This document shows positions 46,245-63,153 of a DNA stretch of 64,000 nt, one piece after another. Location of the stretch: the NCBI RefSeq assembly GCF_002214605.1, contig NZ_CP015193.1, positions 1,468,978-1,532,977 on the forward strand, written 5' to 3'. Each line of letters begins with the position of its first letter. Position 1 is the first letter of the stretch. Below the pieces are notes generated by a model, which did no database searches, was not told where the DNA came from, and saw only the letters and a list, made by a program, of their open reading frames with translations. Both the position numbers and the translations under genes were made by a program. The stretch comes from Thermococcus chitonophagus. Lineage in GTDB: Archaea; Methanobacteriota_B; Thermococci; Thermococcales; Thermococcaceae.

Positions 46245-46346
46245 ATCGCGTACCCCCAAGATGTTTCTTCTCTACAATAATGTAATAAAAATTGGTTTAA
46301 AAATGTTATTATTGTTATGAAATATTTTAATTATTGTTACATTTAG

Positions 46347-46613: not shown

Positions 46614-46681
46614 AAAATATTAAAAGAATTCTGAAAATGGGAGACCATAAGAGAGTCTGAAATAATGTGTATTTCCGTAGG

Positions 46682-48025
46682 CTAGTTGGTCTGAATTAGT
46701 CTAGTTAAACTCTGGCTTAGCTCTAAGAGGAAATTTTCCCAACCCTCATTTTTTAACAGATTATGATTGAGATTTATTGTCCTGATTATGAGAGGAATAT
46801 CTTTTCTGCCTGTACGTGTTTCTACTTCAAAATGCCATTCTTTTTCTACATGTTCTTCCAGAGTTGGATAGATTAAGAGGACACCATCGGCATTCCATTT
46901 TGTCGCATATGCATACATCTGATACAAATCCGATTGAGAAACTCCCAGTTTTTTCTCTTCCTTTGTTAAAAGCTTGTACTTTAAATCGATCACATATCTT
47001 TTTCCTTGTACTTCAATGGTAATGTCAGGAATTAACTTAAAGTAGCCCCTGGAATACTCTCTATCCATTAAAAGATAACCAATTTCGTGCTGTGGGATTA
47101 TCTTTGCATCTTGGAATTCCTCTGTAAGAACTTTTTCTTTGTTACTGATTATTGTATTTGTTACAAATTTCTCAAAGAGTTTCTCCATAGGAATCAAAAA
47201 TGTGAAAGTCTCAATTTTTGAATACTGAAGCTTTACGATAGAATTTTGAATGAAAATTTTGGCAAGCTCAACATAAGGTTTGAAAATCTTATTCAAACGA
47301 TGGAAATGAATTCTTTCAATCTCTTCTAGGCTAATTGGTACTAAAGAAACAGAATCAAATATGCTCATAATATTTTTCAGCATTCTGTAGTTATCTGGGG
47401 ACTCCGTAATCCTTGACATTAGATACGCCGCATATTTCAGTGTTCTGTTAAGAGGATTGTCTATGAATTTATCATTGAAATTGCAGGGAATAATATGTCT
47501 TCTTGCTGGATGCAATGAGTACTTTTGAAAGTTTATCTGCCCTTTGACATACCTAAGCTCATCATGCCTATGCATGTATTGGTAATATCTATGAGACTTG
47601 AGGATAGAGAGAAGACCACATGCATAAATCCTAATCAGCACTTCTAGAAAATCAGCCTTTGCTAAACTAACACTTGCGATATCTGCATCGGTTATTGGGA
47701 TATCTCCAGCGATTGAAAGCATTTTGAGTAGATTACCCATGACAAGAGATTTCGAGCGCTCTAGCTCTTCATAGCTCTTTGTTCTTAACAATTTCGGAAA
47801 AATTTGCAATGTCAAACCTTTAAATGAGAACACTCCAACTTTGTTTTTTGGCTTAATTGTTTTTAGGGTAATATCGAGGAACTGCAACTTCTCGTTAATC
47901 TTATCAAGTTCTCTTACGAGTTTTTCAGGAAGTACTAATGTTTTTGTATCTTCTTGGAATGTTGGCCTATCTCCACCAATACTGTAAAAAATAGGAACAA
48001 ACTCAAAGAGATCTATTGTTTTCAC
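46682..48025 (-). CDS. mcrC: McrC-type restriction endonuclease subunit
   Basis: About 447 residues. The N-terminal half has the McrC adaptor pattern (PKLLRTKSYEELER; FLEVLIRIYACGLL) and the C-terminal nuclease shows the PD-(D/E)XK site 'LIPDITIEVQGKRYVIDLKYK' shape (P-D about residue 337, D-x-K about 350). McrC docks on the McrB hexamer, stimulates its GTPase and cuts DNA. The GTG at 48025 with GGTGA five bases upstream is a better start than the GTG at 48034. It is the last gene of the defence operon, 19 bases after mcrB. Confidence 0.88.
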   Translation of the reverse strand: MKTIDLFEFVPIFYSIGGDRPTFQEDTKTLVLPEKLVRELDKINEKLQFLDITLKTIKPKNKVGVFSFKGLTLQIFPKLLRTKSYEELERSKSLVMGNLLKMLSIAGDIPITDADIASVSLAKADFLEVLIRIYACGLLSILKSHRYYQYMHRHDELRYVKGQINFQKYSLHPARRHIIPCNFNDKFIDNPLNRTLKYAAYLMSRITESPDNYRMLKNIMSIFDSVSLVPISLEEIERIHFHRLNKIFKPYVELAKIFIQNSIVKLQYSKIETFTFLIPMEKLFEKFVTNTIISNKEKVLTEEFQDAKIIPQHEIGYLLMDREYSRGYFKLIPDITIEVQGKRYVIDLKYKLLTKEEKKLGVSQSDLYQMYAYATKWNADGVLLIYPTLEEHVEKEWHFEVETRTGRKDIPLIIRTINLNHNLLKNEGWENFLLELSQSLTRLIQTN

Positions 48026-48043
48026 TGCACTCACCGTATTTCA

Positions 48044-50935
48044 CTAGCTTTCTGCTAGATTTTGAAGAATCTCTACAAATTTTTCATTTGAAATCTCATC
48101 CATTGTGTAAAATTCAACATAATTTTCATTGGATTCTTTAATGAAAGTGTTATCTCCAAGTATTTCCTTGAGCTTATCTGGAGCATCATAGAAATACTCT
48201 TGGATTAGTGGGAGTATCTCATAGAACCATATGAGTTTGAGCACTTCTATGAATTTGTCTTTGTTGTTCAGCACTTTTTGAAGCTCAAAATAATAACTAT
48301 GGCCGATTTGATGATCTCTGTCGTATTTTTCTTTGATCTTTTGATTTAGGGACTTTAATGCGCTTAATGCTATTTTTGCAATCTCTTTTACTTCGTCTCC
48401 CGCTTTATCTACTATCTCTTTTTCGATAATCTCATAGTTCGGCATGACTTCAATAAATGCAAATCTTCTCCTTAAAGCAACGTCAATTAGTGCTATGCTC
48501 CTATCTGCTGTATTCATGGTGCCGACTATGTAAAGATTAGGGGGAACCCCAAAGCTTTTCTTGGAATAGGGAAGTGTTACGGTAGTTTCATTTGGTGCAA
48601 ACAAGCGCTTGTCCATTTCAAGAAGTGTTATTAGCTCTCCAAATATCTTAGCTATGTCTCCGCGGTTTATCTCGTCGATTATCAAATAAAATCTTGGAAA
48701 GTCTTCATCTTTTAGTTTTTCAAGGACTTTTTGCCTCTCTTTCTCTGTTAATGTAGGGACTCCAGTTGTTGAAAGCCATTCTTTATTCACTCCCGCAAAG
48801 GCTAACAGAGCATTAAGGGCATTTCTACAAATTCTCTTAAAGACACCCTCCTCTATGTAGAATGTAAGCTCTTTCTTACCGGTTTCCTCATCTTTAATAG
48901 TTGTTGGTTTAATACCCTCAACGAAATCTTCGTATGCAAAGGAAGGATGAAATGTTACAAATTCAACTGCATTGTACTCTACTGTTGTAGACTGCTGAAT
49001 AATATTTAGGTCTTGGAACTTTTCTCCGCCAATCATTTCAGCTATTCTCTGTGCTAGTTCATATGGAAGCTCAAAAAGCGTGCCTCTTAATTTCTGCTTT
49101 AATGGTGACCATGATGATAATAACTCATCTTCTTTTAACTCCCTGAATGTGGGTCCATCAATGAGTTTTATTATCTTAAACCATGCTTTATCTTCTTCAG
49201 CTTTTGTGCATTCAGCAATAGCTCGTATTTTCATATGTGGTTGAGCGAAATAAACAAACGCTATGTCCCCCTCACTCACAGTTTCAAACGCAGATTTTGT
49301 CTTTCCCGAAAATTCTTCTTCAAGACCTTTGTGGACGCTAGCAAGGTCGTACTTGGTAGAACTCATGGTTAAGAGATAGTAATTACGATCTTGGGAGAGT
49401 TGAGATGCTCCTTTAGGAATGATATGTTTTTCACTAGGAAGTTTCATTTTGACATACTGTTTTGCAATCCAGGTTTTCCCAGTACCAGGAGGTCCGTAAA
49501 GAATAACTTGGCCTTTCCTGAGAAGGTTAATATCCAAAAATTTGAACTCTGGTAGTATTTCGGCTTGTTCTAAACTTGTGGAGGTATCTACTGGAGGCAC
49601 TTTGTGCATTTCTTCGTGTTCTTGACCATATTTAACAAGGTAGTATGCGAGCTCTAACATATTGCCCACTTTTAATTTTTCAGCAGTTTTTGAAAGGAGT
49701 GTCAAGAATTCTGCAGTCCTTTTAACTGATCTGCTACCTTTTGGATAATAAAACTTAGGATCGTCAAACCCTAAAATCCTAACAACTTTCTCATTTGCTG
49801 TATTGGCATGTACTGGCAAGAATAAATCCGGCCGAAGTAGCGTTGCTAAGCTTGTAATTACCGTACCTCCTGCATAGGGAACATGCCATACTTCCTTCCA
49901 TTCATTACTTTTTAGAACATCTCCAATATCCTCAGCTTGTGTAAGCCTCTTCAAGAAGCTCTTCATTCTTTTGTCACTCAACAATTCCATTGTCTGGGAC
50001 ATATCCTTGGTGTACATGACAGTGTAGCCTTCTTGAAATACCCTCTTCCATTTTGGATCTCTCTCCACTTTTGAGATCAGTTGATAAAGCTTAGATATCT
50101 CTTCTTTTGTAACCCCTTCTTTATCTAAGAGTTCCAAGAGATAATTAGCTGTATCTTCGAGTGTTTTCATGAATTCATCCTCAATTCTAGACCACTCTTG
50201 TTGGTACATATTTACCAGTGGTTCTAGAACATTAACTAGCTTCTCAACTCTCCAATCGACTTTATCAAAATAATTGAACATCATATCAATTTCTAAGTTA
50301 ATTGGAATGTTGTTGTCGGATAACTTACCGACTTTAGAAAGATACCTCTCTTTGATAATTTCAAAAGCATTTTTGAAATCATTGTAGTCATTAATATCAA
50401 ACTCTATGAACTCTCTAACGAACTCCCGAGAACATGTATTGTAGATTGGAGCTTCCTCAATGTGGAGTTTACCATAAAGCTCTCCCAGAATATTACGTAG
50501 CAATCCTTTAAGTGCCTTAAAGTTAGTTGTCTCTTTAGGTTTAGATTGATAAATGAGATCATAGATTTCATTAATCCATTCTTTGTTGAATTCATGAGAA
50601 GAAGTAATTTGTGAGATTATCTCTTTCAGCTTTAATATTTGCTCATTATTGGCTGACTCAATAAATGCTGGTAAGATTCGTGTATTTTGAGCCCAAAGTG
50701 GTCGTTCTTTTTTGCCACTAAATAATTCTCTGAGAAGTCCTCTAAGTTTTTCAACGTCATTTTCTTGGATAATCTCTGCCACTATCTCTTTTGTCTTCAT
50801 AGTAGTTTTCAACCAATCAGATTCCTCTGTTAGATCATAATGAACGTATTTCTTTCCTTTTTTGTTTACAATATTTTTCCATGTTTCTAACTTTTTATCA
50901 AGCTCCCCTAATTTGTCCTCTTTTAATTTTGCCAT
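48044..50935 (-). CDS. mcrB: McrB-type GTP-driven AAA+ motor with inserted EVE/YTH-like domain
   Basis: 963 residues from the ATG at 50935 (GGGAGGAG five bases before it). Numbered from the upstream ATG at 50950: residues 1-450 are helical and unrecognised; Walker A 'LYGPPGTGKTW' at 486-493; 'TFHPSFAYEDFVEG' at 665-680, an McrB hallmark; Walker B 'YLIIDEINRGDIAK' at 755-768; sensor 'MNTADRSIALID' at 812-823; and 'LRRRF'. Between Walker A and the HPS motif lies an extra block of about 135 residues (508-645) that looks like an EVE/PUA-type base-flipping domain ('NYYLLTMSSTKYDL', 'VSEGDIAFVYFAQ', 'IIKLIDGPTFRELKEDEL'). It probably recognises modified DNA for McrC. Confidence 0.88.
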   Translation of the reverse strand: MAKLKEDKLGELDKKLETWKNIVNKKGKKYVHYDLTEESDWLKTTMKTKEIVAEIIQENDVEKLRGLLRELFSGKKERPLWAQNTRILPAFIESANNEQILKLKEIISQITSSHEFNKEWINEIYDLIYQSKPKETTNFKALKGLLRNILGELYGKLHIEEAPIYNTCSREFVREFIEFDINDYNDFKNAFEIIKERYLSKVGKLSDNNIPINLEIDMMFNYFDKVDWRVEKLVNVLEPLVNMYQQEWSRIEDEFMKTLEDTANYLLELLDKEGVTKEEISKLYQLISKVERDPKWKRVFQEGYTVMYTKDMSQTMELLSDKRMKSFLKRLTQAEDIGDVLKSNEWKEVWHVPYAGGTVITSLATLLRPDLFLPVHANTANEKVVRILGFDDPKFYYPKGSRSVKRTAEFLTLLSKTAEKLKVGNMLELAYYLVKYGQEHEEMHKVPPVDTSTSLEQAEILPEFKFLDINLLRKGQVILYGPPGTGKTWIAKQYVKMKLPSEKHIIPKGASQLSQDRNYYLLTMSSTKYDLASVHKGLEEEFSGKTKSAFETVSEGDIAFVYFAQPHMKIRAIAECTKAEEDKAWFKIIKLIDGPTFRELKEDELLSSWSPLKQKLRGTLFELPYELAQRIAEMIGGEKFQDLNIIQQSTTVEYNAVEFVTFHPSFAYEDFVEGIKPTTIKDEETGKKELTFYIEEGVFKRICRNALNALLAFAGVNKEWLSTTGVPTLTEKERQKVLEKLKDEDFPRFYLIIDEINRGDIAKIFGELITLLEMDKRLFAPNETTVTLPYSKKSFGVPPNLYIVGTMNTADRSIALIDVALRRRFAFIEVMPNYEIIEKEIVDKAGDEVKEIAKIALSALKSLNQKIKEKYDRDHQIGHSYYFELQKVLNNKDKFIEVLKLIWFYEILPLIQEYFYDAPDKLKEILGDNTFIKESNENYVEFYTMDEISNEKFVEILQNLAES

Positions 50936-51008
50936 AAATACTCCTCCCATTTTGAATTAACAAAATTTTCCAAAGATTCTACAGACTCTCATAGATTGAC
51001 CTAACAAC

Positions 51009-53867
51009 CTAACCGACATAAAGTACATATCGTTTTTTCGTTTTAATGTCTAAAGTTTCCAATGGATTTCTGAATCTAAAGAGCATGGGTTCCTTTCCAA
51101 TATTTACAACCAAATAAAGCCAATAGTTAGAAGCATGGTCTTCGGCGAATTTATGCTCGGCTTCTGTAAGTTCGGCCCATAAAGAAAACCCCTTATGCCC
51201 CTTGACTTCAATGTATCTGACTTCACCAGTGACTAAATCTCTACTCAAAATGTCATAGTGTTCTTCTAAAGACACATTTTTCACAAGCCATTTGCTTGGA
51301 TCATTTCCATATTTCCTAATGTATCTCTGTTTTTCATACTCGATAGCTATTCTCATTGCTTCTTTTTCTATCTTAAGTATTTCTTCTGTTGGAGAATTTC
51401 TTTCCCATTTTTCTTCTCCACTTTCAACTTCTCTAATGTATTTGAATATGGCTATCTCTTCAACTGTTGTCTTATCAAAGTCTAATGGAAAGAACACTTG
51501 CCCAGCCTTTAAGGGTTTACGGAATCGCTCTTCATATTTTTCCCATTTAAAGGAGATTTCTTGAAGTAATTTCCTTATGGTGCTTTTTATTTTACCAATA
51601 TCTCTAAATTTTTCAATGCTTGTTTGGTTAGTTTCTTCAACACTCTCATATGGGACAGTTGTTAATATTTGTGTACTTATGTCTTTAAGAGCTTCGAGGA
51701 GTTTGAGCCCATAGAGAATGTCTCCCTTCTTGTCAATAGCTACAGGAATTTCAATCAGCGTTTGAGAGGAATTCTTTAGTTTTACTAAGTAGATTCTCCT
51801 AAGTGTTTCTTCCCCCTTTACAAAAAGAATCATTTTGCTTCCAATGTCCGTATTGCCTTTTAATAGTAGGGCATTAAGCTCCTTCCATAGATTTATTGCT
51901 TTTTTATCGCTCCCATAGATGAATAACGAAAGCCATTCTTGAAGCTCTTTCTCAACTTGTTTTCTAGAAAGATAATCTGAGCCAAGATATTTTGAAAGTT
52001 CACTTCTGATTTTCTCCCCCTTAATAACTGGAAACACACTTTTGGCTCTTAATCTTGCAGAGAGTTGGTTTATCATTGCTAATAACTCCCTAACATAAAT
52101 ACCAAGATTGCCCTTTATTGATTCCAAAACAAGCGTGTATTCATTGATTTTCTTCCTTTTCTTTGGATCGAGATTTAGTAATCCTAAATCGGCTCTCCAT
52201 AAGTTTTCTGCACTTGCAATGTAGACCTTACTGCCTACAAGTTGGGGAGGGTTATTCATGGCTTTGTCAATATTCATTAACTTATGATAAAGGTTTTCTA
52301 ATACATCTCTATCCATTTTATTTGATAGAAATACGGTGTACACATAAGATTCTTTTTTCTGACCTAAACGCCATATTCTTCCCATTCTCTGTTCGAGCTT
52401 GATTGGGCTCCATGGGGCTTCATAATTTATCAAGACATTTGCAACTTGGAGATTCAGACCTTCTCCAGCAACATCTGTCGCTATCAATATCTTTGCACCA
52501 TTCTCTTGTTCGAATCTCTCTTTGATATTATGAACATCCCCTTTATTTTTGCCAGAAATTGTTACAATATCCGTTTCATGGATTCCCAGATATTTGGGGA
52601 GATTGTTCTTGAGATATTCTAAAGTGTCCAAGTATTCTGTAAAAATCACAATTTTCTCTCCTCTGTCAAGATGATACTTGACAAGTTTTGCTACGTTTTT
52701 TATTTTGCTGTCTTTTTCCTGAGCTTTTCTTGCTAACTCCAAGATTCCTCTCAATCTCTCTATTTGTCTCGATGTCAAAATATCGGCGTAAGCTTCAACT
52801 ATTTTGTTCAGCTCCTCATCAATTTCATCTGCTTCAATTTCTAATTCGTCATAGCCAAGAGCAAATATTTTCTGTAAGATATCTTCTACTTTTTTTGGGT
52901 GTTCTTTTCCTTTGCTTTTTGATATCATCCTGTTGAGTGTCTGAATTGAGGCATAATAACTTGAACTTGCTCTCTTTCTTAGGATAACAGCAAGCAAAGA
53001 TAGTGGAATATTATCAGGGGCAATCATCTCTGTTAGAATCTTTTGAAGTTCTGAGAAGTACTCTTTTTCAACATCGCTGATATCAACTATGAAGGAATGA
53101 ACATGACACTTCCTGAATATTTCCTCCCCTTCAGCTTGGTTTACTATCCCCTTGGTTCTCCTGAATACAAGTGTTTCATGTGTTACCCTGTAAAACTTTG
53201 GAGCATCCAATGCATCGTAATTCTCGGTAAGTGTTGGGTCTAAGTATCTAAGTCTGTTTAGATAGTCTTTGTAGTCTCCTCTATGAGGAGTCGCAGAAAG
53301 CAGAATTATGTTTCTATGTTTATTGCTGGTTAATCTTCTCAATAAATAGTCTCTTTGTGTGCCAAGCGTTGCATTGTGGGCTTCGTCCACTATTATTAAA
53401 TCCCAGCCAACAGAATCGATAATATCTGGATATCTCTTAGCTAAATCAATTGACATTATGTAGTAATATGCCTTGTCTACTCCACTTTTGAAAAATGTGT
53501 TCTTTAACTGAGAGCCACTTGAGACAATCCAAGGCATGCCTCCAACTCTTTTAACTTCAGAGACCCATTGTTCGATAAGGATTTTTGGGGTTAATATTAG
53601 GACCTTTCTAATACCATCTTGAAGTTCGAGATACTTTGCTATTGCAAGGGCTTCTATGGTTTTCCCCAATCCAATTTCATCAGCTATCAGTACTCTAATT
53701 GGTCTAACAGTCATTAGATGCAGAAGCAAATCAGCTTGATGTAAGAATGGGATTATCTTTTGTTTTGAGATAGGATTTGTAATTGCAAAAAAGAATGCAA
53801 TAGGATTACTCCTAATGATTCTATTTGCTAAATAAACTTTAAATTCACTTTCAAAACCTCTAATCAC
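51009..53867 (-). CDS. SNF2-family helicase with DUF3883-like C-terminus
   Basis: 952 residues. Helicase motifs: 'IADEIGLGKTIEAL' (Walker A, 63-70), 'LIIVDEAHNATLG' (DEAH, 161-164), 'LLSATPHRGD' (192), 'TDVAGEGLNLQVAN' (motif V, about 464-477) and 'EQRMGRIWRLGQ' (motif VI, about 492-503). The last 88 residues ('EEHYDILSRDL', 'GEVRYIEVKGHKG', 'WLYLVVNIG') look like DUF3883, a nuclease-like domain common in defence helicases such as DISARM DrmD. The start is GTG with GGGTGA six bases before; it overlaps the 145-residue gene by eight bases. Confidence 0.9.
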   Translation of the reverse strand: MIRGFESEFKVYLANRIIRSNPIAFFFAITNPISKQKIIPFLHQADLLLHLMTVRPIRVLIADEIGLGKTIEALAIAKYLELQDGIRKVLILTPKILIEQWVSEVKRVGGMPWIVSSGSQLKNTFFKSGVDKAYYYIMSIDLAKRYPDIIDSVGWDLIIVDEAHNATLGTQRDYLLRRLTSNKHRNIILLSATPHRGDYKDYLNRLRYLDPTLTENYDALDAPKFYRVTHETLVFRRTKGIVNQAEGEEIFRKCHVHSFIVDISDVEKEYFSELQKILTEMIAPDNIPLSLLAVILRKRASSSYYASIQTLNRMISKSKGKEHPKKVEDILQKIFALGYDELEIEADEIDEELNKIVEAYADILTSRQIERLRGILELARKAQEKDSKIKNVAKLVKYHLDRGEKIVIFTEYLDTLEYLKNNLPKYLGIHETDIVTISGKNKGDVHNIKERFEQENGAKILIATDVAGEGLNLQVANVLINYEAPWSPIKLEQRMGRIWRLGQKKESYVYTVFLSNKMDRDVLENLYHKLMNIDKAMNNPPQLVGSKVYIASAENLWRADLGLLNLDPKKRKKINEYTLVLESIKGNLGIYVRELLAMINQLSARLRAKSVFPVIKGEKIRSELSKYLGSDYLSRKQVEKELQEWLSLFIYGSDKKAINLWKELNALLLKGNTDIGSKMILFVKGEETLRRIYLVKLKNSSQTLIEIPVAIDKKGDILYGLKLLEALKDISTQILTTVPYESVEETNQTSIEKFRDIGKIKSTIRKLLQEISFKWEKYEERFRKPLKAGQVFFPLDFDKTTVEEIAIFKYIREVESGEEKWERNSPTEEILKIEKEAMRIAIEYEKQRYIRKYGNDPSKWLVKNVSLEEHYDILSRDLVTGEVRYIEVKGHKGFSLWAELTEAEHKFAEDHASNYWLYLVVNIGKEPMLFRFRNPLETLDIKTKKRYVLYVG

Positions 53868-54297: not shown

Positions 54298-54302
54298 TTA
54301 CC

Positions 54303-57300
54303 CTACCTCCTAAGTTCAACTACAAACGTCACTTTGTCATTTAACACAGACAACTTTTTGAGTAGTAGTTCTGTAATTGTAATTTCTCTTTGGATCGTGA
54401 CATCTACATTAAGTTCGTCGCTTCCATCTAAATATTCCTTTGAATCTTCAATTACTTGAGTAGCTACATCAAGTGGAATTCTGTCCAAGTCCATAGAAAC
54501 TCTTGAACCATTGGCTTTTATTACAGCAGTTCCTGACAGTATGTGTTCACTACCAATAGCATCCTGCAATATTTTGAGATGTTCAAGTCTCCTGATGTCT
54601 TCAATTTTTATTAATGTCCCTCCAATATGCTCTTCTGTGAGTTTTCTAGTTCGTATGGTGGGGCTGATTACTTCTACTCTTAGGGTAGCTACATGCTCCA
54701 CATCTTTACTTTCAGCATAAAGCCTGAATTCGTCGCTTTCTCTTGGAGCCTTTAGATGCCAAACAGTCTCGAAAGGCACGATTCCATTTGTTTCTTTAAG
54801 TTTTCCATAATCAACTTTCAGCTTGACTTCAAATGATTTATTTGGATCCTTTGGAGCTATTACAACTTTCACTTCAATGAGCTCTTCAGGATGTGCTGAA
54901 ACATAAGCTGGAGAAATTTCAATTTCGAAGTCGCTGAAATCATCTGAGAGTTCTTCTTCAGTAATGACAACGACAAAATTTCCTTCAACAAGCATGTTAA
55001 TGTCTTCATCTTTGATTGAAATATTTTCCTTATCTCCGACTATGTCTTTGAGTCTTATTCTCTGTCCGTCTATCTCAAGAAATACTTCAACTTTTCTTCT
55101 GATTTTCTTCTTTCCTCTCTCGATTGTCTTTGTTTCCTCCCTTTGCAGTAGAGAACTCACTTGGGCCTCAAGCGCAATTCTTTTTGGCAAAATCTTGTCA
55201 TCAAGAGTTATTTGATGAATTGTGGCTTGCTCCGTATTCTCTTTTTTGATTTCACCATTTACTATTACTATTTCCTTGACATCTTTGAATACTAACTTGC
55301 CACTTTTTGTTAAGATTCCTATTTCAAGTCTTGAAAGACCCTCTTTGAGGGCTTCTTTTATCCGCTCATCCTCAACCATTGGTAACGCTGGATTCATGCG
55401 GAAGTAGTTTCGTATCTCTCCAAAAGTGTAAGGTCTTGAGCTTAGGTCAATTCCTACAATGTTTAGCATTGCCTTTAACTCATCAAACGAAAGATATTCT
55501 GCAACTTTTTCAACTTCCGGTGAAATTAGGACTGAATAAACAGTTTCAAGTATTGATGTTGAAGTTGTTGAAGCTTCAGTTGCTTTTATACTGTCTCGGT
55601 ATCCTTCATTTACCGGAAATGCAACTTTTCTGAAGGATTGTACTATTGTGGTGAACAAATCATCTTTAGCAGCATTTTCTATGTGCTCAATCATTGATTG
55701 CTGTATCTTTACAACGTTCTTCCCATAGTCGGAGTAGATTTTGTCAACTTCTTTTTTAACCTCTTTACAGGCTTCAACTTTCGCGAAAGCTTCTAGAATT
55801 GAATTAAATCCTTGCGGCGTTGGATACGTGACGACTATTGTATTCCTGAATTTCCTTGTTCCTCCCTTATGTTTAAGGATCAAATCCTCAAGCAGTTCTT
55901 CATCAACATACTCATAATAGAGTGCTAGAAGCTTGTAGCTATCGTCATCAACAATGTCTCCCATTCGAGGATCAAAGATAACGTCTTTCCGTTCAAATAG
56001 AGTAATCTTGATTTGCTCCCCTTTAGACTTTTTCCCTTTTCCTGGTTTACCTTCAATAGCCTTCTTAATTTCTGCAGTGACTTTTTCGATAAGTTCTCCT
56101 TTTTTATTTCTGAGAAGTTCGTCCTTCTTTGCGAGAACCATTTGATTCACATTTGCTATTCTCCAAACCCAGAAAACATTGTACCTATCATCATAGTTTA
56201 AGTGGATAAAGTAGTTCCTTGATATTATTTCTTCAATGGCATCATGAATCTTTGTTGAGTCCCACTCCATTGCTTCAAAAATCTCTACCTCGTAAATTCC
56301 CCTTGATATTTTGAACTTGTCTGGAAATCCTGTTAGAGGTGTTGGAGAATCGTAGGGATACGTTGAAAGGAATATGTATTCATAAATAATCTTCACGAGC
56401 TCTGGTTGTGGGTATTTCTTTAGGACTTTTGGATTAAGGTCAACATCAACAACTCCACCATAATTAGCATAATTCTCTTGGAAAAGAAGGCCTCTCAGGT
56501 CGTTATCAAAGACATCAATATGATGGGGCATTACTAATGAATATTCTTTTTCCTCCCTGTGTATTTTTCTAACAACTTTCCTTGTGAGCTTTATCAGATC
56601 TCTTGTCTTTTGTAGTCCAGGCACTCTTTCAAGAATTGTTCTCATTATTGTGAAGTAATCCGGATGGAATGGGTATGTAACCTCAAGCTCTCTCAGGAAG
56701 TCTCTTGTATCACCGAAAATTTCTTCATTTGCCATATCAACCATGTATCTCTCAATGATCTTGATTTTGTTATTTGGATCAATTTTTTCGAAAATTCTTC
56801 TTTTGAGAACTTCAATTAAATCATTGCTCCCCCTCTCGGTTCTTAAAGGAGCAACGAGTTCCCCACTAAGTTTTGCAACAGCCTTCCACAGAGCTTCAAG
56901 ATAATCCTTATCATAGGCTTTCTCAGTTTCTCTTAAAACACCTCTTTCTACTTCAATTGGCAAAGTGACTATTAGAACATTATCGGTCCCAATTATTGCC
57001 TTTGAAAGTCGCTCTAAAAATATTGGAATGTTATTGGCATAGTTCTTGGCATCCTCTCTGTTGCTTCTTCTCAAGTTATTTCCATAGTCTGCAACTTCAT
57101 CAATCATTATCAGCGTTTTGCCTTCTTTGAGAAGTTCTCTCAAGCTGTTTATGTCTGGGACTGTTAAACTCTCATCGTATGCTCTTATGTCAGCGTATCT
57201 ACCAAGGAGATGAGCCAAATAGCCCCAGATAGTGTGGACTTTGTAAATTCCAAAGTCAAGTGGTTTAATTGGATTTCCTATGTCTCCCATACCATAAATA

Positions 57301-57692
57301 ACAGCAATATTGACTTTGCCCAATGATTTTATTCTCTGTGCAATATGCTCTAGTCTCTTTCTCTTCATAATGTCGTAATCTCTCAAAACCTCCTCATCAA
57401 GGAGAGCATCGGGATGATTTAGAATGTGATACAGAGTTACCAATGTGTGTGTCTTACCTCCACCAAAGAGCGAGTAAACCGTGAATACGTTAGTTCCTTT
57501 TCCCTCAAGTGTTGATAGAACTTTCTCAATCAAATCTAGCATTGAATCGCTGAAATATGTTCTTCTAAAGAACTCCTTTGCATCAGAATAAATCTTATGT
57601 GCTCTTCCACTTACCACATCGTTAAGCTCTGGAGCAGAAAATTCATCAAGTGTTTCATCCATAACATCATTCCATATCTTTTCCCTTAGCAT
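54303..57692 (-). CDS. DUF499 (COG1483-type) large AAA+ ATPase, anti-phage associated
   Basis: About 1,129 residues. Walker A 'SLFGGGKTHTLV' (residues 94-105 counted from the TTG at 57752) and Walker B 'TLIMIDEVADYG' (213-224) are the DUF499 hallmarks, with a conserved 'TYPFHPDYF' further on. The C-terminal 350 residues are beta-rich (immunoglobulin- or Ku-like strands; not assigned). I prefer the ATG at 57692, which has GGTGA five bases upstream and fits the usual N-terminus; the TTG at 57752 overlaps the previous gene and is also possible. In other genomes DUF499 ATPases travel with DUF1156 methylases and SNF2 helicases in defence clusters. Confidence 0.9.
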   Translation of the reverse strand: MLREKIWNDVMDETLDEFSAPELNDVVSGRAHKIYSDAKEFFRRTYFSDSMLDLIEKVLSTLEGKGTNVFTVYSLFGGGKTHTLVTLYHILNHPDALLDEEVLRDYDIMKRKRLEHIAQRIKSLGKVNIAVIYGMGDIGNPIKPLDFGIYKVHTIWGYLAHLLGRYADIRAYDESLTVPDINSLRELLKEGKTLIMIDEVADYGNNLRRSNREDAKNYANNIPIFLERLSKAIIGTDNVLIVTLPIEVERGVLRETEKAYDKDYLEALWKAVAKLSGELVAPLRTERGSNDLIEVLKRRIFEKIDPNNKIKIIERYMVDMANEEIFGDTRDFLRELEVTYPFHPDYFTIMRTILERVPGLQKTRDLIKLTRKVVRKIHREEKEYSLVMPHHIDVFDNDLRGLLFQENYANYGGVVDVDLNPKVLKKYPQPELVKIIYEYIFLSTYPYDSPTPLTGFPDKFKISRGIYEVEIFEAMEWDSTKIHDAIEEIISRNYFIHLNYDDRYNVFWVWRIANVNQMVLAKKDELLRNKKGELIEKVTAEIKKAIEGKPGKGKKSKGEQIKITLFERKDVIFDPRMGDIVDDDSYKLLALYYEYVDEELLEDLILKHKGGTRKFRNTIVVTYPTPQGFNSILEAFAKVEACKEVKKEVDKIYSDYGKNVVKIQQSMIEHIENAAKDDLFTTIVQSFRKVAFPVNEGYRDSIKATEASTTSTSILETVYSVLISPEVEKVAEYLSFDELKAMLNIVGIDLSSRPYTFGEIRNYFRMNPALPMVEDERIKEALKEGLSRLEIGILTKSGKLVFKDVKEIVIVNGEIKKENTEQATIHQITLDDKILPKRIALEAQVSSLLQREETKTIERGKKKIRRKVEVFLEIDGQRIRLKDIVGDKENISIKDEDINMLVEGNFVVVITEEELSDDFSDFEIEISPAYVSAHPEELIEVKVVIAPKDPNKSFEVKLKVDYGKLKETNGIVPFETVWHLKAPRESDEFRLYAESKDVEHVATLRVEVISPTIRTRKLTEEHIGGTLIKIEDIRRLEHLKILQDAIGSEHILSGTAVIKANGSRVSMDLDRIPLDVATQVIEDSKEYLDGSDELNVDVTIQREITITELLLKKLSVLNDKVTFVVELRR

Positions 57693-57744
57693 TTCACTCA
57701 CCAGAGTAACTTTGTTTCCAATCTTTTTATGTTCTTCGGATAGA

Positions 57745-58071
57745 TTATCCAAATATCTTCCTTTTGAGCTTCTTAGCTAAGTACAATATGCTAATTAACA
57801 TGTGTATGCTCCATTCCCAGGATTCAAAGAGCCCTCTAAGGAAATATAGTCCAATTATCCATCCCATTAGATATCCAGTTGACCAGTAGTTCATCTTTAG
57901 GAAAAGGGAGTAAAGAGAAACAATTGCAACAAGATAGGCTACTATGTATCCCATTTGTGAGGTTATTCCAAGCAATGGTGGGATAACTCTTGTAATTAGG
58001 TAATATCCAACTATTCCTGTACCTGCCACTGCTGCGGCTCTCCTAAAGCCATGTTTTATTCCACCCGCCAT
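57745..58071 (-). CDS. Small membrane protein of the defence operon
   Basis: 108 residues with about four hydrophobic segments (GIVGYYLITRVIPPLLG; MGYIVAYLVAIVSLYSLFL; YWSTGYLMGWIIGLYFL; MLISILYLA) and basic ends (KLKRKIFG). It follows the nucleotidyltransferase by 13 bases. No family recognised. In a defence operon a compact multi-helix membrane protein could be an effector that permeabilises the membrane, but it could equally be a passenger. Confidence 0.6.
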   Translation of the reverse strand: MAGGIKHGFRRAAAVAGTGIVGYYLITRVIPPLLGITSQMGYIVAYLVAIVSLYSLFLKMNYWSTGYLMGWIIGLYFLRGLFESWEWSIHMLISILYLAKKLKRKIFG

Positions 58072-58084
58072 GCAACCACCATTA

Positions 58085-58927
58085 TCAAGACTTTATTATT
58101 GTTTCAAGCTCTCTTAGCTTTCTCTCAAAGAGCTTCTCCTCAAAGACTTTGAAGCCAACGTAGTCGGCCAGCATTACCCTAATGTCCTCTTTGTACTGAG
58201 TTCTCTTTAAAACTTCATATATTGAAGTTGGCTTGTAATTCTTAGCCTTGTAGAGTTCCCTTAGAACGTCCTTCCTGAGATAAAAGTCCTTCTCACGCCA
58301 CGCATTTCTTTTCTTGTAGAAGCCCATTACGAGAGAGTAAATGTCAATTATGTCCTTCCAGTGCTTGTCCCTCTTGTCATCTGGATAATCTCCAAGATTA
58401 GTGTAAATATCGAACTTTAAAGCCAAGACTGCTTCAGGAAAAGCCACATCAACTTCTCCTCCAGCAATTAAATTTTTGTTAAAGTCTCGAACTTCAAAGT
58501 GAACTCTCGAATAATACCGATTTCTGAAAATTGATGAAGCAAATGGAGTGTCAAAGCTCAATTGTGAGGGCTTTTCGTCAAAGAGGAAGTCAACCTTCAC
58601 CTCCTCCCTTACGATTAAGCTTTTGATGGGCTTTGCAAATCTGAAGCCAGCACTTTGAAAGCCGAGGTTCTTCATAACCTCCCTTATCTCCTCAAAGCTT
58701 TCAGCCTTTGCGAGGAAGTCAATGTCAATTGAAGGGACGCCGCTGTAACCCAAAACGTTATCCACCCAGTAGTACACACTCCAACCGCCAACAAGGACAA
58801 CCTTCCCCCTCAACTCCTCGGCAATCTTGAACATTGCATTTATTGACTCTCTAATAACATCATTGTTGTAGCTCCTCAAATCATAAACCTCAAGGAATAT
58901 GTCCTCAGAAAGCTCAAGCCTCTTCAT
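58085..58927 (-). CDS. AbiEii-like nucleotidyltransferase toxin
   Basis: About 280 residues from the ATG at 58927 (GGTGAG four bases before). The nucleotidyltransferase core has 'VLVGGWSVYYW' (about 46-56) and 'PSIDIDFLAKA' (about 75), the G-G...D-x-D pattern of the AbiEii/AbiGii family, and a third acidic residue around 'EVKVDFLFDEKP'. AbiEii toxins block growth of phage-infected cells by adding nucleotides to RNA (tRNA in a related toxin). It overlaps the end of the wHTH gene by 14 bases, the usual antitoxin-then-toxin order. Confidence 0.75.
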   Translation of the reverse strand: MKRLELSEDIFLEVYDLRSYNNDVIRESINAMFKIAEELRGKVVLVGGWSVYYWVDNVLGYSGVPSIDIDFLAKAESFEEIREVMKNLGFQSAGFRFAKPIKSLIVREEVKVDFLFDEKPSQLSFDTPFASSIFRNRYYSRVHFEVRDFNKNLIAGGEVDVAFPEAVLALKFDIYTNLGDYPDDKRDKHWKDIIDIYSLVMGFYKKRNAWREKDFYLRKDVLRELYKAKNYKPTSIYEVLKRTQYKEDIRVMLADYVGFKVFEEKLFERKLRELETIIKS

Positions 58928-59516
58928 TCTTCTCACCTTCAATTATGGAAATGACTGTTTCAAAAACATCGTCAAAGAGCCTCGTGTACGTTCCCTGGAC
59001 AAGCATGTCCGCCAAAATCATTCCCCAGCTTGGAATGTAATAACCGTTGAGTTCTTTCCTAATCTTGAAGTAGAAGTCATCGTAAATGTAAACCTTGAAG
59101 GGATAGCCTTCGGGATCCTTAAACTTCATAAGCTCTTTGAAGGTTTTTTCACTTGCGTAGAGGATTCCGCTTGCAGGGCTGATTATCTTGCCAAGCAGCC
59201 AGAGGGCAGAATTCCCAGAAAACAGAACCAAATTCCTCATGTCATAATCTGGAACGAGCTTGATAGTTATTGGACTTAGAGAATTCAGTATTACCTCCTT
59301 ATCCTTTGCCCACTTGAATATTAGCCCTTTTCTGTCCAAAAGTATGATCCTTCCATCCGATGCTGTTGTGAGGTAGCCTTCCCTTTTTAGGGCTCTTATT
59401 GTTTGGTAGGTGTAAATGTAGTTCAGCTCAGCTAATCTCGCAACTTCTGGAATCCGAATTCCTGTGTAGTCAAATACCACACTGTAAATTTTCTCCCTTG
59501 ATACTGGTGGTTTCAT
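58914..59516 (-). CDS. AbiEi-like winged-helix antitoxin
   Basis: 200 residues. Residues 1-65 form a winged helix ('FDYTGIRIPEVARLAELN', 'YTYQTIRALKREGYL', then 'DGRIILL'), and the remainder is an alpha/beta domain of the kind found in AbiEi antitoxins, though the match is weak. The ATG is preceded by a perfect 19-bp inverted repeat (59527-59575). Known AbiEi proteins bind inverted repeats in their own promoters, which fits. It is followed directly by the nucleotidyltransferase. Confidence 0.7.
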   Translation of the reverse strand: MKPPVSREKIYSVVFDYTGIRIPEVARLAELNYIYTYQTIRALKREGYLTTASDGRIILLDRKGLIFKWAKDKEVILNSLSPITIKLVPDYDMRNLVLFSGNSALWLLGKIISPASGILYASEKTFKELMKFKDPEGYPFKVYIYDDFYFKIRKELNGYYIPSWGMILADMLVQGTYTRLFDDVFETVISIIEGEKNEEA

Positions 59517-59526
59517 GGTGTATCAC

Positions 59527-59575
59527 ATTAGTAATATTAGTAAATCCTTTTTAAACATTTACTAATATTACTAAT
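59527..59575. promoter_or_regulatory. Perfect 19-bp inverted repeat before the AbiE-like pair
   Basis: ATTAGTAATATTAGTAAAT (59527-59545), 11-base spacer, and its exact reverse complement at 59557-59575. Each arm itself holds ACTAAT twice. The left arm ends ten bases from the antitoxin ATG; the right arm overlaps the stop codon of the preceding gene. Probable autoregulatory operator and internal promoter of the toxin-antitoxin pair; as RNA it could also form a hairpin. Confidence 0.75.
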
Positions 59576-59936
59576 GCAGTAGTTTTGGTAAGACTTGAAT
59601 AAGAAGACTGCCAAGCGAAATTCCTACTGCAATCTTTGAGTATCTCAGGGCTTTTTTATTAATGAAATCCTGGTAATAAAAGTTTAATCCCTTTTCTGTG
59701 ATCCTAATCTCATAATCCATGCTGGGATTCTTTAGCTCGTCTCTGGAAGTTCGTCCTATTCCAACAATAAGTGGGTAGTCAGTTGCAAGTAGTTCATTAT
59801 TGAGCATCTCTTCTAATAATTGGACATCAAGCTCAGATCTAAACCTTTTGTGAAACTCAGATATCTTCTTTGGATACTCAATAAAAAATTTTAAAATTTC
59901 TAATCTGCGTTTAATTGGATCATTTTTCCGCCCCAT
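59571..59936 (-). CDS. Winged-helix protein with C-terminal membrane helix
   Basis: 121 residues. The first 95 look like a winged helix of the archaeal PadR/MarR-like kind ('RRLEILKFFIEYPKKISEFHKRF', 'YEIRITEKGLNFYYQDFI'). The end (about 100-118: KIAVGISLGSLLIQVLPKL) is a single hydrophobic helix. A membrane-tethered DNA-binding protein in a defence operon is unusual. It lies 55 bases after the methylase gene and before the AbiE pair. It may regulate the operon or sense the membrane; no family name is given. Confidence 0.65.
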   Translation of the reverse strand: MGRKNDPIKRRLEILKFFIEYPKKISEFHKRFRSELDVQLLEEMLNNELLATDYPLIVGIGRTSRDELKNPSMDYEIRITEKGLNFYYQDFINKKALRYSKIAVGISLGSLLIQVLPKLLH

Positions 59937-59991
59937 TTTGATCCCTTAGATAAATTTTAAAATAATGAAAAATTCAAATAAAACGAAAGAA

Positions 59992-62900
59992 TTAGCTCCC
60001 AATAATCTCCATCAATGTCTTCTGAGGCTTCTTTATGAGTTCGAGCTTCTCTGCAATGTCCTCAGCAAGCTTGAACTCTACATCGTCCCATCTTAGGTTC
60101 TTTGCCATGCTCGTGAATATCAAAGCTAAGTTTGTAGCTTCTTCGACAAAACTCTGGTACTTCTGCTTGAGTTCGTCGTATCTTCTCCTGAACTCGCTCT
60201 TTGGATGCCTCTTTGCGTAATACTCAAGGAGATGTAAAGTATCAATCGCGTTCTTTGGCTTTGGACTTGCAATATCAATACCCCTGCTCTTTAAGAAAGC
60301 TTCAAGCTTAGTGAGGTTGTCGCTCTGCGGTGAGTTGAGCTGGTAATACTTTGAGCTTCCCTCTTTCTTCTCCAAGAGTATCTTGCTACTGATTAGCTCC
60401 CTTGAGTTTGTCTCTGTTGCTATTGAGAGCAAGACAACGTCATTTGATGAAACCTTTGCCTTTCCAAAGAGAAGCTTGGCTAAGAGGTAGAAGAGAGCTT
60501 CCTTTGATGAGACTCTGCCGTGGACTTCTTGAGCTAAGGCTTTTGCAATGGCTTGGGCTGATGCGGGATAAACATATTTTTCAAGAATTTCAAGCACGGG
60601 GAGTTTGGTTCCATACCTCTGAACTTCCTCATATTCAGTGATTACGCTCAAAGCTGATGCTATTACCCCATAAAGCAGGTCCAAGCCAGTATAGCCGTGA
60701 GCTAAAAGCTGTTTGGCTTTTTCTTCAGCAACAAGCTGTATCTTTTCCGTAAAGCGGACTTTTTTGACTTCGCCCGTGTATGGATCTTTGTATTCAACAA
60801 AGTCTCTAACATCAACAACTTTCTTGCCATCTCTCTTGACCTTACGCCAGACTGCTATGATAGAAGTATCTAACGAGAGCTTTCCCTGTCTCATGATACT
60901 CGAACCAAGCTCAGTATTTAGGGGAATTGCAGTGGTGATTTGCAACTTTGCACCTTGCCAGCCCGCTTCAATTAGAGTAGCCCAAGCATCAAGGGATGTG
61001 TGGGCATAATAGGTTGCCAAGATTCCGTCATCTTTAAGATTGTTCTTCATTGCTATGAAAGCTTGGGTAAAGAGATTTTTGAAATGTTCCTTGGCGAGCT
61101 TTTCTTTCTCTTTCTCAGTATAGAATCTTGCAGAGAACTCTGAGACCTCTTTACTCGCAAACTCCTTCCACTGGACTTCCCTCTCCCTGTACTTCTTGCC
61201 AACCTTCTTGAAGAAAGCCTCTCTGTGAAATCTGGGGACAAGCTTGTTTCCTTCAACGTCACTCAAGGCTCTCTTGAGCCAAACGTAGTAGAAGTCGCTA
61301 AGCTCTGCATAGGGAACGTCAATTGAGTAAGGTGGGTCAGTGACAATCACATCAAAGGATTTATCGAAGCTTAGAGAGGTTGCATCACTCTGCATTACTT
61401 CGACTTTGCTAAATGTGTGAAGGTTTGGGGCAAGAGATGAAATAAGATAATTCAAAGCCCCCATAACTGAAGCAGTTGCTTTTGAGATGGAATACGAATT
61501 ACCTTGTATGTACAAGACGTTTGTATCGCCCCAGTTCCATACCATTGCGATTCCTCTGAATGATAATGCTCCTTGGACTTTGTTAGGTAATAACGAACCT
61601 GAGGACCATCTTGTGGATAAAGTGTTGTAATTTATTATTTTCGTCTGAGCAACACTCAAATACGTCGCTATTGCTTCTGCATACTTGAACGCTTCCTCTT
61701 CGCTCCAGCCCTCCTTCAGCTTCTCTTCCTCAACTTTCTTGCCGACCTCTCTTATGAGCTTCACTATTTTTACAAGTGTGAGGAGCTGGCGAGGGTTGAA
61801 GAGCTTGTACCATTGATCAAAGCCCCAACCAATTATCTGCAATGCACCGAAGAGTAAGCTACCATAGGGCGGAACGGGTTCTCTCGGAATATCTGGATCT
61901 CCCTTCTTCAACAGCTCCTTGACTTTCTCCTTAGCTTTCTCCAATTTTGCGTTGTCTTCTTTGGTTGCTGGTTCAAAGATTAAATCGTTGTTCTCAATTT
62001 TCACTTTAACAAGCAGTCGTTGCCTTGCATAATTCTCATCACCCTGGTGATATTTTCTGAGGGCGAACTTGACGTAAAATTCTCCTTCTCCCTTCTTTCT
62101 AGTGTAGTGATTGCCGCTCTCATCGACGAACCTCATGACGTTTCCACAGTTTAAGCAGAAAGCCTGTTGTCTCCTTGACTCCATATTGCTCTTTGGAACT
62201 TCAAAGACAACAGCCTCTTTACCATCAATCTTTCTAATCTTTGCATCAACTTCTCCTTTCTCGATCTTAGGTTTGAGCTTCTTGACTATTTCTTCATCTT
62301 CAAAGACTATCTCTCCTTTTCTTGTGTCAACTTTGGCGTTTGAAACATCGCCCACTATCTGGTTTAAATCAACAACCTCAATCTCAATGCCATTCTCGGT
62401 TCTCTTGGGCTTCATGTAAGCTAAGCGCTGATACTTCCCTTTGCTGTCTTTAACCCTTGCGAGCCACCAGTTACCCACTATTGGTGTCCACTTTCCACAA
62501 TGGGGACATTTAACTTCCCAAGTGCCAATGTAAACAGCAACATCATCGTCATAAAGCTCTCTGATCTCTGGGTCGTTTTTAAGCTGCTCAGTAATCCAGT
62601 TGCCCCACTTCGCAACATCATAAACTAAAGCGGGAACTTCAACACTTGTGATTATCTTCTTCTTTGCCTCTCGTGCGTAGCTGTCTAACCCTAAAGCTTC
62701 AAGCTCCTTAACTGGAACTTTCACCTTCAGCCTTCCAAACTTCTTTGGATACTCAAGAACAGCCTTGAGGAAAACGTAAGCCGTTGGTAATAACTCAACA
62801 GCGGTAACATCCAAACCCAAGCGAAGCCCTTCAAGCGGAATACTTCCAAAGCCAGCAAAAGGATCTAAAAGCTTTTTTCCTTCAAAATATTGCTTGTATT

Positions 62901-63153
62901 TATCTGGAATTTGAGGATTAAAACGATGGGGAGTATTTTCATTAAGCCTTATCATCTTTTTAAATTCCTTAGCATCAACATTTTCTGGAAGCAATGCTCC
63001 AGCAATTACAGCTCTTGCTCCAATTAATGGTTTCCTTGTCCACCAGAAGACCATCTCCCAATAAGGTGGTCTCGCCGGACCCTTTTCTTTAGCACTTTTT
63101 TCATTAATTTCCCTTATGGGAAAGTTTGGGCTTTCAAGAAAAGTTCTTTTCAT
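59992..63153 (-). CDS. DUF1156 adenine-type DNA methylase with zinc ribbon (COG1743)
   Basis: 1,053 residues. The DUF1156 start 'FPIREINEKSAKEK' and 'WWTRKPLIGARAVI' is followed by the SAM-binding 'LLDPFAGFGSIPLEGL' (about 95-110), two CxxC pairs 'CPHCGKW' (216) and 'CLNCGNV' (333), and the catalytic 'DVIVTDPPYSIDVPY' (601-615; D-P-P-Y). D-P-P-Y enzymes methylate the amino group of adenine or cytosine. The order of motifs (I before IV with a very large insertion) is that of the family. It is the first gene of the defence operon and presumably protects host DNA. Divergent from the gene at 63314. Confidence 0.92.
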   Translation of the reverse strand: MKRTFLESPNFPIREINEKSAKEKGPARPPYWEMVFWWTRKPLIGARAVIAGALLPENVDAKEFKKMIRLNENTPHRFNPQIPDKYKQYFEGKKLLDPFAGFGSIPLEGLRLGLDVTAVELLPTAYVFLKAVLEYPKKFGRLKVKVPVKELEALGLDSYAREAKKKIITSVEVPALVYDVAKWGNWITEQLKNDPEIRELYDDDVAVYIGTWEVKCPHCGKWTPIVGNWWLARVKDSKGKYQRLAYMKPKRTENGIEIEVVDLNQIVGDVSNAKVDTRKGEIVFEDEEIVKKLKPKIEKGEVDAKIRKIDGKEAVVFEVPKSNMESRRQQAFCLNCGNVMRFVDESGNHYTRKKGEGEFYVKFALRKYHQGDENYARQRLLVKVKIENNDLIFEPATKEDNAKLEKAKEKVKELLKKGDPDIPREPVPPYGSLLFGALQIIGWGFDQWYKLFNPRQLLTLVKIVKLIREVGKKVEEEKLKEGWSEEEAFKYAEAIATYLSVAQTKIINYNTLSTRWSSGSLLPNKVQGALSFRGIAMVWNWGDTNVLYIQGNSYSISKATASVMGALNYLISSLAPNLHTFSKVEVMQSDATSLSFDKSFDVIVTDPPYSIDVPYAELSDFYYVWLKRALSDVEGNKLVPRFHREAFFKKVGKKYREREVQWKEFASKEVSEFSARFYTEKEKEKLAKEHFKNLFTQAFIAMKNNLKDDGILATYYAHTSLDAWATLIEAGWQGAKLQITTAIPLNTELGSSIMRQGKLSLDTSIIAVWRKVKRDGKKVVDVRDFVEYKDPYTGEVKKVRFTEKIQLVAEEKAKQLLAHGYTGLDLLYGVIASALSVITEYEEVQRYGTKLPVLEILEKYVYPASAQAIAKALAQEVHGRVSSKEALFYLLAKLLFGKAKVSSNDVVLLSIATETNSRELISSKILLEKKEGSSKYYQLNSPQSDNLTKLEAFLKSRGIDIASPKPKNAIDTLHLLEYYAKRHPKSEFRRRYDELKQKYQSFVEEATNLALIFTSMAKNLRWDDVEFKLAEDIAEKLELIKKPQKTLMEIIGS

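Follow-up and report, generated by a model that had tools for sequence, protein, structure and literature searches.

A conserved four-gene DUF499-centred operon with an AbiE-like cassette and EVE-McrBC genes in Thermococcus chitonophagus

In a 64,000-nucleotide stretch of the Thermococcus chitonophagus genome (contig NZ_CP015193.1, positions 1,468,978 to 1,532,977; hereafter the window), ten open reading frames (ORFs) lie on the minus strand between positions 46682 and 63153; no gap between them exceeds 58 bases, and three junctions overlap. An initial annotation had described them as one composite defence operon. Counted from the upstream end, they encode a DUF1156 N6-adenine-type DNA methyltransferase (g1, 59992-63153, 1053 amino acids (aa); PF06634 44.4 bits, PF01170 30.5 bits), a protein with a C-terminal stretch that is hydrophobic by eye (g2, 59571-59936, 121 aa), an AbiEi-like winged-helix protein, the putative antitoxin or repressor (g3, 58914-59516, 200 aa), an AbiEii-like nucleotidyltransferase, the putative toxin (g4, 58085-58942, 285 aa), and a protein that looks membrane-like by eye (g5, 57745-58071, 108 aa). 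These are followed by a DUF499 AAA+ ATPase (g6, 54303-57752, 1149 aa; PF04465 793 bits), a 145-aa protein of no named family (g7, 53860-54297), an SNF2 helicase with a C-terminal NOV_C/DUF3883 nuclease-like domain (g8, 51009-53867, 952 aa; PF00176, PF00271, PF13020), which spans 51078-51368 (PF13020 68.2 bits) and has a PD-(D/E)XK-like pattern, a McrB-like AAA+ protein with an EVE domain inside its motor (g9, 48044-50950, 968 aa; structure 6ut3 E 3.8e-67, AAA_5 53.7 bits), and McrC (g10, 46682-48034, 450 aa; PF10117 215 bits). Matches in Pfam, PADLOC and NCBIfam and to 6ut3 bear out the labels first given to the methylase, DUF499, SNF2/DUF3883, McrB and McrC genes, and with them the general reading as defence. 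The ten genes indeed share one strand; the maximal gap of about 73 bases in the initial annotation fits a later McrB start codon. Measured from McrC to g1, the junction distances are 9 bases for McrC/McrB, 58 for McrB/SNF2, -8 for SNF2/g7, 5 for g7/DUF499, -8 for DUF499/g5, 13 for g5/g4, -29 for g4/g3, 54 for g3/g2 and 55 for g2/g1. Such same-strand packing is suggestive, not proof, of a single transcript.

Relatives of these proteins were searched for in 94 genomes of the order Thermococcales, 74 of which reach 90% completeness with contamination of no more than 5%, and 20-kb stretches were examined around 14 near-full-length DUF499 copies and seven of the weaker places. DUF499 matches occurred in 23 of the 94 genomes, 14 of them near full length (the window's genome included) and nine short or at about 25% identity. 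The gene order methyltransferase-DUF499-g7-SNF2 is kept at all 14 near-full-length core loci, and in 12 of them the methyltransferase and DUF499 genes overlap by 4 bases. In the window and at a sister locus in genome G086 the two genes are instead 2239 bases apart, the room being taken by g2-g5. Neither the g2-g5 cassette nor McrBC is present at 12 of the 14 loci; G086 has the cassette only, and both modules are found only in the window. The DPPY motif of the g1 methyltransferase is invariant (14/14), as is the HYD...EVK pattern of the NOV_C/DUF3883 domain in the 13 unbroken copies, the 14th copy (L038) being broken. In that core, from genome G028 (L038, 6101-8991), the SNF2-nuclease gene is split over two frames. 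Genome G007 has what appears to be a decayed second core copy (L043, 441-1129), the start of a methyltransferase followed by the end of an SNF2 gene, upstream of an intact core.

The conserved unit is a four-gene operon, methyltransferase-DUF499-g7-SNF2/nuclease, and not the ten genes. A conserved ten-gene system is ruled out by the 12 cores without either extra module, and among the related genomes the three modules that the initial annotation had joined into one integrated unit are usually apart. The reading in which self-marking, restriction, cleavage of modified DNA and growth arrest form one layered system selected as a unit draws on the shared strand, the short gaps and the three overlapping junctions (SNF2/g7, DUF499/g5 and g4/g3). 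It also has published parallels: the CoCoNuTs branch of McrBC enzymes is predicted to form superoperons with BREX and other systems (PMC11090510), and a PARIS module is embedded in a Salmonella BREX island (PMC11341690). We nevertheless consider it very improbable, as the full set is found at one and the cassette at two of 14 core loci, the McrBC segment is present or absent relative to the G086 sister locus, and the g3-g4 pair has a separate upstream inverted repeat.

The arrangement DUF499-g7-SNF2 extends beyond the order. A pattern scan of genome contigs gave ten loci, eight of which were scored; the DUF499 profile exceeded 600 bits in four (L111-L114), and a further hit (L115) proved to be a Thermococcus contig already among the genomes in the set. 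DUF499-g7-SNF2 was found in a Methanocaldococcus (L111, together with the methyltransferase), in Methanosarcinales (L112) and in a metagenome-assembled genome (MAG) of Geoglobus (L114). A MAG of Culexmicrobium (L113) matches g7 weakly (E 8e-6), and its contig ends before any SNF2 gene is seen. In Geoglobus (L114, 1893-2641), DUF499 is immediately preceded by two small genes that match PIN_9 and UPF0175 weakly and may be another toxin-antitoxin pair. GmrSD, again a type IV restriction system, and an SMC-like gene (L112, 6920-11280) adjoin the Methanosarcinales core and are encoded on the other strand. Pattern-based scans of viral contigs gave no tblastn-confirmed relatives of DUF499 or g4. In plasmids no g4 relative was found at E 0.01, and DUF499 matches covered at most 49% of the query in the best 20 listed, with 80% coverage reached in none of 130 records.

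Within the otherwise conserved core, two parts of the methyltransferase behave differently from the rest. Residues 500-580 (61414-61656, minus strand) are a hypervariable, exchanged segment, and residues 425-450 (61804-61881, minus strand) are a second one, exchanged separately. Over the 91 pairs of the 14 proteins, identity in residues 500-580 is uncorrelated with that of the remaining protein (r 0.08), and residues 425-450 correlate neither with the rest (r 0.08) nor with the 500-580 segment (r 0.09), compared with r 0.44-0.97 for seven control segments; in sliding windows the correlation is lost across about residues 421-560 (r -0.14 to 0.15). Low correlation does not by itself prove exchange, since the conserved window 101-140 has r 0.28 because it hardly varies; the window 781-820, which is as variable as the exchanged region, keeps r 0.90. 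Individual pairs show the two pieces moving apart. The window and G086 enzymes share 100% of residues 425-450, 34% of residues 500-580 and 94% elsewhere, and L039 (genome G027) and L045 (G077) share 88% of residues 500-580, 23% of residues 425-450 and 68% elsewhere. At the nucleotide level, 61405-61656 remained unaligned to G086 by blastn between flanks of 96% and 89% identity. By these comparisons, about residues 421-560 reassort independently of the rest of the methyltransferase, in at least two pieces, which is new here. We infer that the exchanged pieces read DNA, because a target recognition domain has been described in methyltransferases of DUF499-centred systems (PMC12839542) and because the BREX methyltransferase PglX determines the target of both marking and defence (PMC11341690). 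If so, strains with one common piece should share part of their methylation motif, a prediction testable by long-read methylomes.

Comparison with the G086 sister locus points to a recent exchange. The two DUF499 proteins are 98% identical, 50989-61404 of the window is 96.4% identical to G086, and blocks from the core to the upstream NurA, HerA, Mre11-like and Rad50-like genes are 86-96% identical, whereas a 6.3-kb control stretch of the window matches G086 in only three pieces of 64-77%. Because of this difference, we conclude that the block was exchanged recently between lineages labelled as different genera. The NurA, HerA, Mre11-like and Rad50-like genes themselves (L047 798-7636, corresponding to the continued window at 64798-71636) are about 95% identical to G086 over most of their length, and a repair operon therefore travelled with the defence locus. 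Synonymous divergence (dS) between the window and G086 is 0.035-0.08 for g6-g8, 0.05 for g2, 0.27 for g3, 0.19 for g4 and 0.54 for the methyltransferase, with 0.57 and 0.40 on the two sides of its recognition segment. The higher values for g3 and g4 than for g6-g8 point to a separate exchange history of this pair.

The pair g3-g4 is the best-defined part of the cassette. Neither g2 nor g5 has a Pfam match at E 0.01; g2 relatives are confined to the window, G086 and, at E 0.003 only, a third of the 94 genomes, and the g5 frame is broken in G086 by a 1-base insertion. The g3 gene precedes g4 and overlaps it by 29 bases. Members of the g3 family match HTH_Crp_2 (19/19) and TrmB (16/19), all weakly. 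In the g4 family, G52, G53, D73, D75, K176, D197 and D200 are invariant in 12 of 12 members, and weak matches to PF14907 occur in all 12 and to the AbiEii family PF08843 in three (best E 3e-4), the window's own g4 being without a PF08843 match; the PADLOC AbiEii model matches at E 0.003. What the initial annotation called an AbiE-like pair is a winged-helix gene with a nucleotidyltransferase gene; on these matches the label is fair, and membership of the AbiE family itself is weakly supported. Between the window and G086, dN/dS is 0.06 for g3 and 0.13 for g4, and both genes are under purifying selection.

Upstream of the pair lies a perfect inverted repeat (59526-59576) with arms of 20 bases and an 11-base centre that contains TTTAAAAA, reads GTTTAAAAAGG on the minus strand and resembles a TATA box. 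The repeat is the window's only perfect inverted repeat with arms of at least 14 and a loop of 3-25 bases, and none such arose in 12 Markov-simulated windows. Repeats were found upstream of g3-family genes in 14 of 20 regions, those of the window and G086 included and some being near-duplicates (L102/L103). Of the regions that gave none, L092b is an internal start, and L095, L100 and L101 are imperfectly symmetric by eye. The letters of the repeat vary among g3 subfamilies, while its place is kept: it surrounds a TATA-like box no more than about 60 bases from the start codon, and it precedes the pair whether this lies in the core operon or elsewhere. Binding to inverted repeats in their own promoters has been reported for AbiEi and Rv2827c (PMC3985639, PMC7319586). 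The window's repeat is thus a putative operator and promoter: g3-g4 probably has its own promoter there, which favours an internal transcription start in the supposed operon, though read-through may also occur.

The pair also occurs apart from the core. Besides the window and G086, it is found with both frames open and at least 71% identity in G027, G028, G037, G047 and G018, and with a broken g4 in G071; in G027 and G028 it lies about 206 and 315 kb from the core on the same contig. A tblastn search of the 20-kb stretches around the 12 other cores detected no relative of g3, g4 or McrC. In addition, the g3-like gene is intact where the g4-like gene is lost or truncated (L096, L098, L102, L103) or broken (L097). 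The cassette could accordingly be a selfish passenger, an addiction pair lodged in an operon whose loss is punished, with no role in the defence exerted by the core. Its frequency without the core, its own upstream repeat, the broken g5 of G086 and the loss of g4-like genes beside intact g3-like ones, as expected of a discarded toxin, would all suit such an element. The cassette is inserted exactly between the methyltransferase and DUF499 genes with both frames kept, and g3 and g4 are under purifying selection, although an addiction pair would show the same; on balance, we regard a mere passenger as unlikely, but as a more serious contender than the integrated ten-gene system.

The second module is EVE-McrBC. 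The window's McrB aligns to the solved McrB chain 6ut3, which we take to be that of T. gammatolerans, and has an NTAD signature in its motor. In this alignment the P-loop part (469-502) and the remaining motor (from 659) are separated by an insert, at a place where 6ut3 has no more than a few residues. The insert holds the EVE domain (residues about 523-639; 49034-49384, minus strand): excised as residues 505-665 it covers positions 1-145 of the 145 in PF01878 at 23.3 bits, just above the cut-off of 23, in agreement with the first assignment of EVE to this McrBC, and EVE is not reported for the whole McrB at E 0.01. The homologous stretches of G026 and G019 fall below the cut-off (22.4 and 19 bits). 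McrB matches, mostly to the motor, occur in 42 of the 94 genomes; the G086 genome has none at all, and around the 12 other cores (20-kb loci) tblastn gave only P-loop fragments, in L042. The nearest relatives of the McrB motor (59%) and of McrC (51-52%) are in G026 and G019, whose motor also bears EVE and which have no DUF499 match at E 0.001, while the N-terminal half of McrB is closest to G093 (49-50%); because of these differing affinities, the window's McrB looks like a mosaic. In G026 and G019, the EVE-McrBC genes are preceded by 155-aa and 533-aa genes common to both (L104 2947-5012, L105 9047-11112).

In the window, McrBC and two short ORFs occupy a 5.98-kb segment (45008-50988) that the sister locus lacks. 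There, in G086, only 3 bases separate the 96% block from a 201-base block of 74% identity, which identifies the segment as present in one lineage and absent in the other; because the 12 other cores are without McrBC, it is simpler to assume that the window's lineage gained it. The two short ORFs (45035-46259) overlap each other and have neither a Pfam family at E 0.01 nor a tblastn relative among the loci compared. Of the 12 other cores, 8 have a stand-alone EVE gene within their 20-kb locus and 10 have DUF365, and a stand-alone EVE gene also lies upstream of the G086 core; Pfam confirmed EVE in six of nine loci and DUF365 in three of ten, the remainder resting on phmmer. No stand-alone EVE gene was detected in the window outside McrB by a search that covers close relatives only, as it also missed the EVE of McrB. 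The archaeal COG1743-DUF499-SNF2 operon has been described as having stand-alone EVE genes for recurrent neighbours, with PIN-GNAT-EVE proteins nearby (PMC7641849).

The constant fourth core gene, g7, which belongs to no named family, is new here. It is present at all 14 core loci as well as in L111, L112 and L114 and, weakly, in L113. None of its 14 members has a convincing Pfam match even at E 10. An AlphaFold2 model from six sequences is of fair quality (predicted local distance difference test 82, predicted template modelling score 0.82) and found no match at E 0.001 in PDB or BFVD. A relationship to DUF3780 was considered and rejected: the likeness is by eye and in the order of secondary-structure elements only, the probabilities from profile comparison were 0.1-0.4%, values that 100 shuffles (maximum 1.1%) and two unrelated families also reach, and hidden Markov model searches in both directions yielded no E below 0.07. 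Helicases accompanied by g7 have 49-62 residues before motif I (14/14 core loci). In L050, by comparison, the SNF2 model begins at residue 123 as against 56, and when 1270 ORFs are scored with the g7 profile, none of the L050 proteins ranks in the top 26. Together with the published DUF3780 beside Tudor-less helicases, these observations make g7 a candidate substitute for the Tudor or DUF3780 role, as a hypothesis only. In a distant DUF499 system of G007 (L054, 6462-6848), a 128-aa gene overlapping the 3' end of DUF499 was found weakly by the g7 profile (E 5.2e-6 for one sequence, about 0.007 over 1270 ORFs of 80-260 aa). It ranks first after the 14 g7 proteins (hhalign 64%) and matches DUF7680 below the cut-off, as no g7 protein does; we keep it as a lead only.

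The core can be placed among described systems. DUF499-centred BREX-related (BR) systems have been described as a group that takes in Hma, the name used by PADLOC, and a model for them has been published (PMC12839542). The tripartite set of DUF499 ATPase, N6-methyltransferase and SNF2 helicase that characterizes this group is also present in the window, and our core fits it. The likeness to DISARM-related clusters drawn in the initial annotation is too loose: the helicase alone matches DrmD and DrmA models, and neither DrmB nor DrmC is among the matches listed (for the helicase, the best 25 of 55). PADLOC Hma models match the core in part (E 4e-54, 9e-53 and 1e-44), the best models being another MTase_II (1179 bits) and, for the helicase, DrmD. 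With BR Type-1 the core shares the N-terminal DUF1156 of the methyltransferase (PF06634 44.4 bits), an SNF2 helicase with a C-terminal nuclease domain (NOV_C/DUF3883, 68 bits) of predicted restriction endonuclease activity, and EVE genes as recurrent archaeal neighbours (PMC12839542, PMC7641849). It differs in that the residues before motif I of the helicase are, judged by length, too few for the N-terminal Tudor of Type-1, and in that Type-1 has three genes where the core has g7 as a constant fourth (14/14). The core may work like Type-1, by analogy, without being filed as such. In BR Type-2, DUF3780, a small protein encoded next to DUF499, accompanies a Tudor-less helicase (PMC12839542); at L125, the DUF3780 gene is overlapped by 4 bases by the ORF before it, taken as DUF499 by position. 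The core is alike in that its helicase is Tudor-less and the gene beside DUF499 encodes a small protein, but the HKD domain of the Type-2 helicase is not among the Pfam matches of g8, and g7 is not detectably related to DUF3780. DUF3780 itself had no match in the 94 genomes (no control genome matched there), and its model exceeded the cut-off in 5 of 251 other genomes. For BR Type-3 and BREX, no PglZ or iSTAND/BrxB match was found among the ten proteins, the flanking genes not having been scanned for them.

The added modules, too, resemble known systems. As in AbiE type IV toxin-antitoxin systems, a winged-helix gene is followed by a nucleotidyltransferase gene, here with a 29-base overlap. 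Inverted repeats lie over the promoter in AbiE, with a gap of 13 bp reported for Rv2827c (PMC7319586), and over the putative promoter in the g3 family, with gaps of 11-22. In contrast to AbiEii, 19 rather than 15 residues separate GG and DhD in the g4 family, and while GG and DhD are invariant (12/12), the motif II arginine of AbiEii is absent (PMC3985639). By analogy, the pair may work like AbiE, but we do not file it there. The McrB GTPase motor, McrC and an EVE reader are those of EVE-McrBC type IV restriction, the difference being that in the window, as in G026 and G019, the EVE follows the P-loop and interrupts the AAA+ domain; that McrB GTPase domains can carry insertions has already been reported in general (PMC11090510). 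Back-up effectors beside BREX and BR cores are likewise published (PMC12839542). The main text of that paper mentions neither 'AbiE' nor 'McrB', and no report of this gene set was found in a search of openly licensed papers on DUF499 with AbiE or with archaeal McrBC. The theme is therefore known; joining a DUF499 core with a toxin-like pair and an EVE enzyme is the new combination.

Given the observed gene content, linkage pattern, indel, inverted repeat, recognition-region exchange and purifying selection on g3 and g4, we think it probable that the locus is a four-gene restriction-modification-like core with two later additions, the AbiE-like cassette and EVE-McrBC. In this proposal, the DUF1156 methyltransferase would methylate adenines at a site set by its exchangeable recognition region and so mark self, DUF499 and g7 would form an ATP-driven complex scanning unmarked DNA, and the SNF2 motor with its DUF3883 nuclease-like domain would cut that DNA. 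The first addition would place the antitoxin or repressor g3 and the toxin g4, flanked by two small genes, between methyltransferase and DUF499. By binding the repeat that surrounds its own TATA box, g3 most likely represses the pair, which as an autonomous toxin-antitoxin module could arrest growth or hold the locus in place. The downstream McrBC, with an EVE reader in its motor, probably cuts foreign DNA with modified bases. Several points weigh against this interpretation. Every biochemical activity, the promoter and any cooperation are inferred from sequence. The short gaps and three overlaps are compatible with one long transcript having internal promoters, the DUF499/g5 and g4/g3 overlaps suggest translational coupling, and the identical 2239-base spacing in the window and G086 may reflect selection for linkage. 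In addition, g4 is without the AbiEii motif II arginine and AbiE models match weakly, the inverted-repeat scan gave nothing in 6 of 20 upstream regions (L095, L100, L101, L110, L092b, L098b), and one flank of the McrBC indel is defined by the 74% block (44810-45007) and nothing else.

A further proposal, which we advance tentatively and hold less firmly than the core-plus-additions reading, is that the archaeal DUF499 systems form a distinct subtype, in which g7 would replace Tudor or DUF3780 as the DUF499-bound reader or coupler and targets would be chosen combinatorially through at least two independently recombined methyltransferase pieces (about residues 425-450 and 500-580). If this is true, a population could re-aim both marking and cutting while leaving the ATPase, g7 and the nuclease untouched. 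The constant, uncharacterised g7 is in any case a core protein worth solving. The locus shows how a defence operon is assembled: the core stays fixed, recombination swaps the part that sets specificity, and accessory modules, one of them apparently with its own control, are placed at exact gene junctions.

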